From Pinisolibacter aquiterrae (GTDB lineage: Bacteria; Pseudomonadota; Alphaproteobacteria; Rhizobiales; Ancalomicrobiaceae), in the NCBI RefSeq assembly GCF_019160155.1, contig NZ_JAFNIH010000009.1, forward strand, positions 1 through 64,000: a stretch of DNA of 64,000 nt, written 5' to 3'. Within the stretch, counting starts at the first letter, position 1; every line of letters begins with the position of its first letter. Of the stretch, positions 24,661 to 50,274 are shown one piece after another. Made by a program: the position numbers and the translations under genes. Under the pieces are notes generated by a model that made no database searches, was not told the DNA's origin, and saw nothing but the letters and a program-made list of their open reading frames with translations.

Positions 24661-24838
24661 GGACCGTTTGTCCCCGAGGGAGGTGGCCGATGGTGCCTCG
24701 GCCTTCATGGGCGCGCACCCTAGCAGGGCGCGGGGGCGCTCGTCACGATCCGGTCGGGCGCCTCCGCCCATGGACTCGGAGGCCGTCGCGTGGCAGAGAT
24801 CCGCGGACTCCCGGGGCCCGTGCCCGCCAGAGGTGACG

Positions 24839-45762: not shown

Positions 45763-47019
45763 TCACGCCGCCGTTGCCCAGGTGGCGGAATTGGTAGACG
45801 CGCACGGTTCAGGTCCGTGTTCCGCAAGGAGTGGAGGTTCGAGTCCTCTCCTGGGCACCAACACCTCAGACGAGGTGAGTTCCACCAAAGCGTTAGACGG
45901 CGTTTCCGTCCCACTTGCCGTGGGCGCCGTTTTCGGTGGGACAAAGTCGCCTTCGTCCAGGCGCTTCCGCGCGTTGCGCGCCAACCTCTTCTGATCAGCC
46001 GAGCGGGTGTAGCGGTCGACCTCTTTCGAGGTCTTGTGACCTGTGAACGACATGATTTCGCGGTCGCTGGCGCCCTGTTCGGCGAGCGTCGCCGAGAAGA
46101 ATTTGCGCAGCCCGTGCGCCGATCGATCCTTCAATCCCGCCTCGCGACACCAGTCTCTGAACTTGTTGCCGAAGGCTGCCGTCGAGGCGAAGGGACGCCC
46201 GTAGTCGGTCACGAGAAACGTCTCGGCGCCGTGCGCCGTCACGACGAGCGCTTCCTTCAGCGCGTCGCTCAGCGGCAAGGTGAGCGAGACCGGATTGCGG
46301 TTGCGGTTCTTCCACTGAGTGAAGGTGATGGTGCCGTCATCGATCATGGGTGGGCCGAGGCGATGAACGTCGGAGATCCGCTGTCCGAATTCGGTGAAGA
46401 GGACGAGCGCCAGCCGGGCCATGGAGCCCATGGGGTGACGCGCTTCGAATCGTTCGACGTCGGCCTTCGACCATGCAGGAATGCCGCCCGCACGAACGGC
46501 GGGGAAATAGGGCACGACGGCGGCCGGGTTGGTGTCGGCGAGATCGTTGACCACGGCGTGCTTGTAGAGCTGGCGGAGCGCCTTGATCATGCCGTTCGCC
46601 GCCCCCGGCGTCTCCGACAAGCGGTCCCGTACCGCGCGGACGTGGCGCGGCAACATCGCACGATAGGGCAAAGTCCCGAACTCGCGCCCGTCCTTGGCCT
46701 CCATCAGACAGAAGCGATCGAGGAGTGATCGGCGGACGCGGCGTGTCGAGGCATCGAGCCCCTTGAATTCGGCGCTGGCATAGTAGCGTTCGCACAAGGA
46801 ACGGAACGATCCCGGTGCAGCCGGGGAGTCCTTCCCCTTCCTCTTCGGTGTCGGCTTCACCTTGCCGGCGAGGGCGTCGCGGTAGAGCGACCAGAATGCC
46901 GGGGTGTCGTACTCTTCACGGATGCGGATTTTCGCCTTGCCCGACGGGCGAACGTACCAGCGCACCTTTCCGTGCCGGTCGACGTCGCGCGAGAGGTGGG
47001 GCGGGTTTCGGCGCACCAT
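45763..47019 (-). CDS. Tyrosine-type site-specific integrase
   Basis: A 418-residue tyrosine recombinase. The catalytic residues are in place: Arg214 (EFGQRISDVHR), His302-x-x-Arg305 (SAHGLRKFF), His328 (FTGHKTSKEV) and the nucleophile Tyr337 (VDRYTRSADQ). An N-terminal SAM-like core-binding domain occupies about 70-170. Residues from about 387 on are read antisense from tRNA-Leu and the stop lies 11 bases past the tRNA 5' end, so the C-terminal 30 residues are supplied by the host chromosome and would differ in the excised form. It is the last gene of the element's leftward operon, three bases after the 63-residue gene. Confidence 0.92.
   Translation of the reverse strand: MVRRNPPHLSRDVDRHGKVRWYVRPSGKAKIRIREEYDTPAFWSLYRDALAGKVKPTPKRKGKDSPAAPGSFRSLCERYYASAEFKGLDASTRRVRRSLLDRFCLMEAKDGREFGTLPYRAMLPRHVRAVRDRLSETPGAANGMIKALRQLYKHAVVNDLADTNPAAVVPYFPAVRAGGIPAWSKADVERFEARHPMGSMARLALVLFTEFGQRISDVHRLGPPMIDDGTITFTQWKNRNRNPVSLTLPLSDALKEALVVTAHGAETFLVTDYGRPFASTAAFGNKFRDWCREAGLKDRSAHGLRKFFSATLAEQGASDREIMSFTGHKTSKEVDRYTRSADQKRLARNARKRLDEGDFVPPKTAPTASGTETPSNALVELTSSEVLVPRRGLEPPLLAEHGPEPCASTNSATWATAA
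45776..45860 (+). tRNA. tRNA-Leu (anticodon CAG)
   Basis: A complete 85-nt class II tRNA with encoded CCA. The acceptor stem is GCCCAGG/CCTGGGC with discriminator A, the D-loop contains TTGGTAGAC, the anticodon stem-loop CACGGTTCAGGTCCGTG gives CAG, then a long variable arm and the T-arm AGGTTCGAGTCCT. It decodes CUG. Its 3' 16 bases (45845-45860) are the left attachment site of the integrated element, so the element restored the tRNA end on integration. The integrase gene reads antisense through the whole tRNA. Confidence 0.97.
45845..45860. repeat. attL core of the tRNA-Leu element
   Basis: CCTCTCCTGGGCACCA at the 3' end of tRNA-Leu is repeated perfectly at 50259-50274 in the same orientation. 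The two copies diverge immediately on both sides. A 16-bp direct repeat ending with the tRNA CCA and sitting next to a tyrosine integrase is the standard signature of site-specific integration. Confidence 0.92.
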
Positions 47020-47022
47020 GGG

Positions 47023-47214
47023 TCAGACGGCCTCGTCCCAAGGATTGACGACTTCCGGCTCTTGGGGAGCCGAGGGGGCGGGCCGATCGACCAGAACGAC
47101 GATTCGGCCGTTCGGCTCGACTTCGACGCGCGGGCATTCGACACCTGCCGCGAGCGCGCCCTTGAAGGCGCGCGTGATGTCCGACGTCTTGAAGCGAGCG
47201 GGTTGTCTCGCCAT
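47023..47214 (-). CDS. Small integrase-associated protein (63 aa), unknown function
   Basis: The product begins ARQPARFKTSDITRAFKGAL and continues VECPRVEVEPNGRIVVLVD before an acidic tail. The pattern of a short helix (TxxDIxRAxKxA) followed by a beta hairpin with EVxxxGxIxV is one I associate with small proteins encoded directly upstream of integrases in alphaproteobacterial prophages. An excision or DNA-binding role is possible but unproven. It starts two bases after the portal stop and ends three bases before the integrase start, so it is translated as part of the same operon. Confidence 0.7.
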   Translation of the reverse strand: MARQPARFKTSDITRAFKGALAAGVECPRVEVEPNGRIVVLVDRPAPSAPQEPEVVNPWDEAV

Positions 47215-47216
47215 GG

Positions 47217-48428
47217 TCACACCCCCGTCTGCGTCGCCTGGGTGCCGAGGGGCACCCAATTGGCGGGTTGGTGGTAGACGTCGCCGTTCGCGATCGGCGG
47301 TTCGTTCTCACGGCGGCGGACGTCGTTGGGCGAGAGCGCGCCGATCTCGCGGCCGATCCGGTACGCTTCGAACCGCGCCTGCACGTCGCCGCGCAGCAGC
47401 GCCGACAGGTCGTGTTCGACGTAGATCGACCGGCGGGCGGCATCGGAGAGGAGGCAGCGCATCATGGCCGCTTCGATCCGCGCGGCGAGCGGCCCCAGTG
47501 CATTTTGCACGAGGGCGCGCGCCTCCTGTTCCGTATTGGAATAGGTGCCGCGATCGGTGATGCCGACGCACGTCGGCGGGATACCGAAGACGCGGGCGAC
47601 ATCCTCGTTCGCGAGCTTGCGGCTCGCGAGGAATTCGGCGTCCTGCGGCGTCCACGAGATCCGTTCGAACTTGGCACCGCCGTCGAGGATCATCATCTCG
47701 CCGGACTTGCCGATGCCCTGGTATTTCTCCCTCAGCGTCTGACGAACGCGAGCGGCCTGTTCCTGGTTCTGCACGAACTTGTCGGGGAAGGAGATCACGC
47801 CCGACGGCCGTAGCGCGTTTCGGATGAAGCCCTCGGCGGTCTCGGCCTGCCCGACGGCGAAGCCCATCGCCTCGCGGGCGATGTGGAGCGGCGAGAGGCC
47901 CATCATGCCGTCGCGGGTCGGTCCGCGAACGTGCAACACCTCGTCCTGCAGCAGGACTTCCGTCCCGCCATAGGGCGACGAGATCCGATAGCGCAGGCGC
48001 CCGCCGGCGAGGCGTTCGACGCCGACGTTGCCCCACGGCTCAGGCCAGAGCGCGACCACTTGGCCACGCGCGTTGCGCTCGATCCGGGCGAAGGCGTTGC
48101 CGCGGGTGTCGAGTTCGCGGAGGAGGAATTCGCGACCCTCGAAGGCCGCGAGGTTCGGATTCATCTGGTCGTGCAGTACCGCATAGAGCGGAAGATCGTC
48201 GGCCCGCTCGCGCCCGCCGTCAGCGGTGCGGCGGAAGGCGAAGAGGCCGACGCTCGCCAGCATCTCGGAACGGATGCCGACGCAGCGCGCTGCGACGGCG
48301 AGGCTCGACAGAGTGACGTCGGGAGACGCCGCGCCGCCGAGACCACGCGTCGCGAGATGCTCGGCGAGGAAGGCGTCGGGCGATGCGGAGCGCGTCTCGC
48401 GGCGGAAGAAGCGATCGAGGAAGCCCAT
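47217..48428 (-). CDS. HK97-family phage portal protein
   Basis: The portal forms the dodecameric ring at one capsid vertex through which DNA enters. The 403-residue product, normal for the HK97 family, has LSSLAVAARCVGIRSEMLAS, FLLRELDTRGNAFARIERN, EVLHVRGPTRDGMMGLSPLH, and ASRKLANEDVARVFGIPPTCVG with TYSNTEQEARALVQNAL in the stem and wing region. It ends in a tail that may contact other head proteins. Its ATG overlaps the protease stop (TGATG). No large terminase is present to dock on it. It appears intact. Confidence 0.92.
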   Translation of the reverse strand: MGFLDRFFRRETRSASPDAFLAEHLATRGLGGAASPDVTLSSLAVAARCVGIRSEMLASVGLFAFRRTADGGRERADDLPLYAVLHDQMNPNLAAFEGREFLLRELDTRGNAFARIERNARGQVVALWPEPWGNVGVERLAGGRLRYRISSPYGGTEVLLQDEVLHVRGPTRDGMMGLSPLHIAREAMGFAVGQAETAEGFIRNALRPSGVISFPDKFVQNQEQAARVRQTLREKYQGIGKSGEMMILDGGAKFERISWTPQDAEFLASRKLANEDVARVFGIPPTCVGITDRGTYSNTEQEARALVQNALGPLAARIEAAMMRCLLSDAARRSIYVEHDLSALLRGDVQARFEAYRIGREIGALSPNDVRRRENEPPIANGDVYHQPANWVPLGTQATQTGV

Positions 48429-48976
48429 CAGCACACCCCCACGGCGGCGAGGCGGAAGCGCGCGAGGGCGAGCGGCATGACGCCGCCAGACCCACGCGCC
48501 CGCGCGTTGACGATCGTGCCGTCATAGGCGGCGAACGCCTGGACGACGGAGATTTCGACGAGGTCGACGGCGACGAGCTCGCGCGCCTCGCCCGACCAGA
48601 CGTCGCCGCCGGCCGGCACCCGGAAGCCGAAGCTCATGCCGCCGAGGTCGCCGCGCTCGGCGAGCGCGAGAACGTCGCGGCCCGCCTGGGTGTCGGGCAC
48701 GTCGAGGGCGAAGGCGAGGCCACGCGTGTCCTCGGCGAGGCGCAGTGTCCCCGACCGGGTGCGGGCGAGGACGCGGCTCGGGTCGTGGTCGACGAGGGCG
48801 AGGACGTCGCCCCGCCGCTCGAGGCTCTTGGTGAAGGCACCGGCCCGGATCGTCTCGGAGAAGGAACCGATCCGCGCCTCGGCGCCGAAGAGCGCGGCGT
48901 AACCCTCGAGCGTCCGGCCCTTCGACCGGACTTCGAGGGCTCCCGCCCGCTTTTCGAGGGTGGCCGCGTCGATCAT
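48428..48976 (-). CDS. HK97-family prohead protease
   Basis: A 182-residue capsid maturation protease (peptidase family U35 / herpesvirus-assemblin fold). LEGYAALFGAEARIGSFSETIRAGAF, the catalytic His in LVDHDPSRVLAR (His64) and the Ser in GDLGGMSFGFRVP (Ser115) are all present, followed by the strand pair VDLVEISVVQAFAAYD. It should cleave the capsid protein's delta domain and then itself. Its ATG overlaps the capsid stop (ATGA) and its stop overlaps the portal start, so the three head genes are translationally coupled. Confidence 0.92.
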   Translation of the reverse strand: MIDAATLEKRAGALEVRSKGRTLEGYAALFGAEARIGSFSETIRAGAFTKSLERRGDVLALVDHDPSRVLARTRSGTLRLAEDTRGLAFALDVPDTQAGRDVLALAERGDLGGMSFGFRVPAGGDVWSGEARELVAVDLVEISVVQAFAAYDGTIVNARARGSGGVMPLALARFRLAAVGVC

Positions 48977-50064
48977 GCGATGATGTCCTTCGCGACGACG
49001 AAGCATTCCGGGTGACGGAAGGCGATGTCGGTGTCGAGGAAGGCATGCAGCAGAGCGCCGCCCTTGGACGCGACGTCCGAGTGGTAGGGGTTCAGCAGGA
49101 TGTCGACCCCCGACCAGTAGGCGAGGACGAGGTCGGCCCACCCGCCGTAGATCATCGCCGAGAGATCGGCGCCGGTGCCCTTCGTCAGGTTCGACGGCAC
49201 CTGATTGGAGAAGGTGACGGGCTCGTTCTGGAACACCTGCCCGATCCCGTAGAACCGCGACTGAGCGTCCTTCATCTTCATCGCCGCCGACTTCACCTTG
49301 TTGTTGGTGAGGAAGGCGAGCGAAGTCTCGTCGCAGTTGGCGAGATCGAGAGTGCGGATCATGTTGGGCACGACGTCGAGGTCGAGGGCGGCGCCGTCGG
49401 TCCCCATCTCCACCACCGGAACCGAGGCGTTGGCGAGGATGCCCACGGGCTCGTTGGTGCCGCCGCCCTTGATCGCGGCCGAGTCGAGCGCCTGGGCGAT
49501 CAGCCAACCGAGATCCTTGCGCAGGATGGCCTCGATCTGCGGCGCCTGAATCATCATGCGGCGGGACATTTCGTACTCGCCGGTGACGGTCTTCGGGGCG
49601 AGCGAGACCTTGTCGAAGGCGACGTCGGAGCGGGTGGCGGCGCCACCCTCGGCGACCCAACCGACCGAGCCCGAGCCGGTCATGCGCGGCAGGTCGAGGA
49701 AGGACGTCAGGCCGGAGAGCACCGTCGCGCCCATACGTTGGATCGCCAGCATGGGCCGCAGGCGGTCGATGGTCGGCCCGAGGTCGGTCGCGACGAGGTT
49801 GCCGGCGGTGCCGCCGACGGTGGCGGCGCGGGTCTCGAGCAGGATCGAGGTCGGCACGTTGATGGCGCCCGGGCGGCCCGAGCGGTTCTCGGCGTTCCAT
49901 TCGGCCTCGGCGCCGGAGAGGCGGCCGCGCTCGGAGAAGTCGGCGAGAGCCCGACCGATCGAGAAGCGACGCTCGACGTCGGCGAGGGTGTCGCGGCCAC
50001 CGGCGACCGGCTCGGCCTCGGCACGGCGCTCGGCCTCCTCGAAGATGCGGGCGCGGCGCGCCAC
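48973..50064 (-). CDS. HK97-fold major capsid protein, N-terminally truncated
   Basis: From GTG at 50064 this gives 363 residues. The HK97 capsid fold is clear: INVPTSILLETRAATVGG, RMGATVLSGLTSFLDLPRM, VGWVAEGGAATRSDVAF, LAPKTVTGEYEMSRRMMIQ, AIKGGGTNEPVGIL and a C-terminal VDILLNPYHSDV. The upstream delta-domain helix starts abruptly at ARRARIFEEAERRAEAE, with no normal initiator, because the frame runs into a primase-like sequence in another frame. About 30-60 N-terminal residues appear lost. Translation could start at GTG 50064, but no good ribosome-binding site precedes it. The frame is open to 50256 through attR, which I do not regard as coding. Confidence 0.8.
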   Translation of the reverse strand: MARRARIFEEAERRAEAEPVAGGRDTLADVERRFSIGRALADFSERGRLSGAEAEWNAENRSGRPGAINVPTSILLETRAATVGGTAGNLVATDLGPTIDRLRPMLAIQRMGATVLSGLTSFLDLPRMTGSGSVGWVAEGGAATRSDVAFDKVSLAPKTVTGEYEMSRRMMIQAPQIEAILRKDLGWLIAQALDSAAIKGGGTNEPVGILANASVPVVEMGTDGAALDLDVVPNMIRTLDLANCDETSLAFLTNNKVKSAAMKMKDAQSRFYGIGQVFQNEPVTFSNQVPSNLTKGTGADLSAMIYGGWADLVLAYWSGVDILLNPYHSDVASKGGALLHAFLDTDIAFRHPECFVVAKDIIA

Positions 50065-50147
50065 TCGACGGCGGTCGAGAGGAGGCGGTTCGGTTCGCCG
50101 AGAAGCTGGCGCGCGACGGGTTCGATGAGGTCGACGAAGTCGGTCAT
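50058..50147 (-). pseudogene. Truncated start of a phage primase-like gene
   Basis: Behind a strong GAGGAGGGCGGGAG, an ATG at 50147 opens a frame reading MTDFVDLIEPVARQLLGEPN then RLLSTAVEWR. This resembles the N-terminus of toprim-containing phage/satellite primases in alphaproteobacteria, where a phrase like LLGEPNxxLSxxxELRFG recurs. After residue 30 the similarity ends and the sequence in this frame is a shifted reading of the capsid gene, stopping at 49707. The good start signals plus the abrupt end point to an internal deletion that joined the primase start to the capsid gene. Confidence 0.5.
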
Positions 50148-50258
50148 CTCCCGCCCTCCTCGGGTGGGACGACGCCATCAGAAAACCCAATGAAATCAGT
50201 CCGTGATTTTTCGTCCCACTCGCTGCCAACATCTTTGGCGGGCTTGCCTTTTTCAACG

Positions 50259-50274
50259 CCTCTCCTGGGCACCA
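50259..50274. repeat. attR core of the tRNA-Leu element
   Basis: CCTCTCCTGGGCACCA, an exact copy of the 3' end of tRNA-Leu at 45845-45860. Just to its right TCTCTC-cc-GAGAGA (50275-50288) forms a hairpin, which probably was the original trailer or terminator of tRNA-Leu before integration. The rest of the gap to 50487 shows no gene. Confidence 0.92.

Follow-up and report, generated by a model that had tools for sequence, protein, structure and literature searches.

How does an island of 4.4 kb at a tRNA gene come to carry an integrase and genes for a phage head, and are those head genes still in use? This question is raised by a locus of Pinisolibacter aquiterrae (GCF_019160155.1), which we analysed within a window of 64,000 nt (NZ_JAFNIH010000009.1, positions 1-64,000, forward strand). 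A first-pass annotation had described an element consisting of an integrase, a small protein and three HK97-type head genes, and had proposed two possible origins: a stripped-down prophage, or a minimal form derived from a satellite that encodes its own capsid. We conclude that the element is very probably an alphaproteobacterial capsid-encoding (cf-PICI-like) satellite that an internal deletion has made defective.

The proposed boundaries of the element were perfect 16-bp direct repeats, one of which forms the 3' end of a tRNA-Leu gene. An exact-repeat scan of the window recovered these repeats, which enclose 4.41 kb (Table 1). The same scan returned a second, unrelated 16-bp direct repeat, so the length of the repeat alone is weak evidence for a boundary. 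We accept the boundaries because the repeat sits at the tRNA 3' end, with the tRNA itself called by ARAGORN and Rfam, and because relatives have the corresponding empty site. The same tRNA-Leu gene in four genomes from this GTDB family continues directly into ATC..., the sequence found to the right of attR in the window. In genome G014, a stretch of 161 bp covers both flanks joined, from the tRNA gene to the sequence that lies right of attR in the window, and aligns at 89% with the insert absent. The repeats, the tRNA and the insert-free relatives together show that the boundaries are right. Elsewhere in the window, ARAGORN called a 92-nt tRNA-Ala(AGC) at 24686-24777, which is unsupported by Rfam and is probably a false call.

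The genes of the element all lie on the minus strand with ends that overlap or nearly touch (the protease start overlaps the capsid stop in an ATGA), which agrees with the first description, and profile matches identify the integrase, portal, prohead protease and capsid. The integrase, small protein, protease and portal are all open reading frames. The integrase frame comprises 418 aa, of which about 350 residues align with the integrase of the relative L075; the aligned part ends near 45970, and the rest of the frame over-reads attL into the tRNA antisense. The small protein, for which we assume an ATG start, matched no Pfam or PHROG family at E<=0.01 and is possibly an excisionase-position protein.

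Table 1. Features of the element and its integration site, in window coordinates.
Feature	Position	Strand	Evidence
tRNA-Leu (CAG), integration target; last 16 bp form attL	45776..45860	+	ARAGORN; Rfam RF00005
attL core CCTCTCCTGGGCACCA	45845..45860	.	Exact repeat; empty sites in relatives
Tyrosine integrase	45763..47019	-	PF00589 E=6e-17; phrog_1 E=2.6e-36; 38% over 350 aa to L075 integrase
Small protein (ATG start inferred), between portal and integrase	47023..47214	-	37%, E=3e-9, to equally placed L075 ORF
HK97-type portal, intact	47217..48428	-	PF04860 E=5.9e-90; 96% to same-genus G009, 52-69% to satellite relatives
Prohead serine protease, intact	48428..48976	-	PF04586 E=2.9e-38; 66% to L075
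5'-truncated major capsid gene, without native start	48973..50061	-	PF05065 E=1.2e-24; alignment with full-length relatives; coding signature ends ~50061
Deletion junction, primase codon 29 fused out of frame to capsid codon ~55	50060..50062	.	Frame switch; alignments
Lost primase, first 29 codons	50061..50147	-	57% over 28 aa, E=1e-6, to start of L075 primase P0001 (629 aa)
attR core CCTCTCCTGGGCACCA	50259..50274	.	Exact repeat; outer flank matches G014 empty site

A search with the portal returned a 96% identical relative in the same genus and 48-69% identical relatives in other Alphaproteobacteria, among them elements of Methylobacterium (L024), Brevundimonas (L025 and L026) and Oryzibacter (L027), together with L072-L077. 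Direct repeats lie 10,095-11,095 bp apart in L074, L075, L076, L077, L024, L025 and L026, where element lengths were taken only from relatives in which both ends could be read. Most relatives encode a primase or rep protein, HNH, TerL, capsid, protease, portal and integrase, and in most full-length relatives a tRNA or tmRNA gene lies beside the integrase end or att. The Oryzibacter-group relatives adjoin a tmRNA gene (L027:12564-12901 and L072:6074-6411). The order in the primase-bearing, 11.08-kb L075 is att, primase, HNH, TerL, regulators, capsid, protease, portal, small protein, integrase and att. The window genes are collinear with this layout from the capsid through the integrase, with the N-terminus of a primase at the other end, and the gap between att and the primase ATG is 111 bp in both copies. 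Profile searches with Pfam and PHROGs found head and packaging families and no tail protein family in L075 and L026, both of which hold capsid, protease, portal, HNH, TerL, primase/rep and integrase. In these searches, head-tail connectors or adaptors were recognised in L026 and L027 and none in L075, and TerS gave no family match in the relatives except for an HNH protein that matched phrog_4581. Of the full-length relatives with primase, connectors and terminase that had been suggested as a check, the analysis found elements of about 10-11 kb with primase and TerL, connectors being recognised in L026 and L027, and no intact copy of the same element.

Two relatives differ from this layout. 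L077:3080-13192 (G244:C6) is a 10.1-kb att-bounded element located at tRNA-Arg. It shares capsid, protease, portal and integrase with the other elements, but an 810-aa tail tape measure protein takes the place of HNH and TerL, and no other tail gene was recognised. The nearest relative of this protein (67%) lies in L092, which belongs to a 33.9-kb siphophage-like viral contig; for the other L077 proteins, no match was found there. Judged by its genes, L077 may be a satellite that sets the length of borrowed tails. The same-genus relative, L079:1-5061 (G009:C238), has DNA identity of 90% to the window that ends just past the portal; what follows is another small protein and, at tRNA-Glu, an integrase of 36% identity, so that the two copies differ by modular exchange of the integration module. 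Its contig begins within the portal, the G009 MAG gave no capsid match, and a class-wide capsid search returned one further, distant match only.

We considered whether the island could be the remnant of an ordinary tailed prophage from which terminase and tail genes were lost by stepwise decay, given that its portal, protease and capsid belong to HK97-type families common in siphophages. However, the close relatives of the portal that are readable in full are elements of about 10-11 kb with the same gene order and nearly all without tail genes, whereas the best portal matches among 50,697 phage records are 34-38% identical to the window portal. Furthermore, the order of TerL followed by capsid, protease, portal and integrase is that of satellites, and the tail genes that close relatives of a tailed prophage should carry appear only as the tape measure gene of L077, a partial exception. 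We therefore rejected prophage decay, which we judge to be very unlikely, and of the two origins first offered for the element, that of a satellite derivative is supported. The same genome also contains an RcGTA-type cluster, L091:2344-11337 (G000:C59), with portal, protease, capsid, connectors, tail and tape measure genes. Its portal, protease and capsid are HK97-type, like those of the island, but its portal is about 29% identical to that of the window, it has connectors and tail genes, and it occupies a separate locus. A gene transfer agent origin was rejected because the host GTA is this separate, distant cluster.

Compared with the L075 layout, the window copy lacks a segment of about 6.7 kb that runs from primase codon 29 to capsid codon ~55; together with the 4.41 kb that remain, this segment makes up the 11.08 kb of L075. 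The parent sequence, the length of the deletion and any microhomology at its junction are inferred from this relative, whose portal is 67-68% identical, in place of an intact copy of the same element. One internal deletion explains the survival of the integrase-proximal genes only. In an alignment with nine relatives, homology of the window capsid begins at about codon 55, and the roughly 55 N-terminal residues common to the relatives are absent; by analogy with HK97, the missing codons may correspond to the delta/scaffold region. The capsid frame has a GC3 of 0.93 as far as ~50061 and of 0.52 upstream of it, where the frame shows no coding signature. Upstream of the junction, the coding signature lies in a different frame (GC3 0.90) that begins with an ATG at 50147, 6 nt downstream of the Shine-Dalgarno sequence GAGGAGGG, and that matches the primase start over 28 residues only. 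Initiation at this ATG yields a product of 146 aa in which all residues beyond the 29th are nonsense, and the 427-aa capsid ORF that reaches 50256 is a chance extension. In the gene content first reported for the element, the portal and protease are intact, the capsid is truncated, and a 29-codon primase remnant is to be added.

The main residual doubt is that the deletion reflects an assembly collapse and that the true genome contains a full-length satellite, as the assembly is a draft of 61 contigs and mobile elements are prone to misassembly. However, the contig is continuous across the two att sites and the native sequence on either side, and TerL and primase of the satellite family were found on no other contig of the assembly, which is 99.86% complete. 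TerL_ATPase had no match anywhere in the genome in a profile search that included positive control genomes, and a search without control genomes gave no match to the primase elsewhere in the genome. We consider assembly collapse extremely unlikely.

The first-pass annotation had also suggested that open, translationally coupled portal, protease and capsid genes could mark a head module under selection. The portal and protease are indeed open, but the capsid has lost its own start. That the three genes were kept as a minimal head module, whether to transfer DNA, to interfere with a helper or to serve as a domesticated shell, would agree with the lack of premature stops across about 3 kb of coding sequence and with a dN/dS of 0.066 between the portals of the window and G009 (15 nonsynonymous and 62 synonymous differences over 279 codons). 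However, with a single deleted copy and no deleted sister copy known, we infer that this value mostly reflects the period before the deletion, when the element was an active satellite. The amino-acid changes of the portal are divided about equally between the two branches (4 on that of the window, 4 on that of the sister and 4 unresolved). The capsid is without its native start and N-terminal region, the one good start lies in another frame, and the terminase is absent, while one deletion explains the gene set. Intact downstream frames and a low portal dN/dS fit a recent deletion, for which present selection is not needed, and the open frames are no argument for present use because they are expected after such an event. 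Present selection on the head module was therefore rejected on account of the missing capsid start and the wrong frame, and its chance of being correct appears minimal. Of the dN/dS comparisons that had been recommended, that of the portal gave a mostly pre-deletion value.

We compared the inferred satellite with cf-PICIs, using the family definitions of two reports (PMC10690885; PMC13230959). By these definitions, cf-PICIs have their own genes for capsid, protease, portal, connectors, terminases and HNH, and only the tails are borrowed. The full-length relatives resemble cf-PICIs, as judged from gene content, in being att-bounded islands of about 10-11 kb with capsid, protease, portal, HNH, TerL, primase and integrase and, L077 excepted, without tail genes, but differ in that TerS was not recognised in them. 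With these alphaproteobacterial att-bounded elements the window copy shares a homologous, collinear capsid-protease-portal-integrase block and, generally, a tRNA/tmRNA site; in contrast, they are full length where both ends are readable. The window copy differs from cf-PICIs by its lack of primase, HNH, TerL, connectors and an intact capsid. It does retain an integrase, and att repeats bound it at its chromosomal site. However, it is not a working cf-PICI, because two defining features are absent: its capsid is 5'-truncated and out of frame with the start, and the terminase and HNH packaging genes are both missing from the element.

By the mechanism of cf-PICIs, intact relatives would integrate at a tRNA or tmRNA gene and replicate by their own primase or rep protein, and HNH and TerL would cut the DNA and package it into a head made of the satellite's own capsid, protease and portal. 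Because the relatives are without the tail genes that a free phage needs, tails presumably come from a helper phage. In the lineage of the window copy, a single deletion would then have joined primase to capsid out of frame and taken the primase, HNH, TerL, regulator genes and capsid start. The copy is unable to build or fill a head on its own. Because both att sites and the integrase remain, its sequence suggests that excision may still be possible. The 4.4-kb derivative, with its att sites, integrase and perhaps a packaging signal, might even be mobile in trans, with an intact sibling plus a helper phage to replicate and package it, and would then be a satellite of a satellite, although we regard this as a long shot.

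Taken together, we interpret the deletion as an ordinary loss-of-function event in a little-described family, one that shows the death of a capsid-encoding satellite: a single internal deletion leaves a neat island of integrase and head genes that is open to over-reading as a domesticated capsid. In the literature searched, we found no description of the alphaproteobacterial satellites of about 10-11 kb. They form a coherent capsid-encoding family in Hyphomicrobiales, Brevundimonas and Methylobacterium, one member of which has its own tape measure gene.
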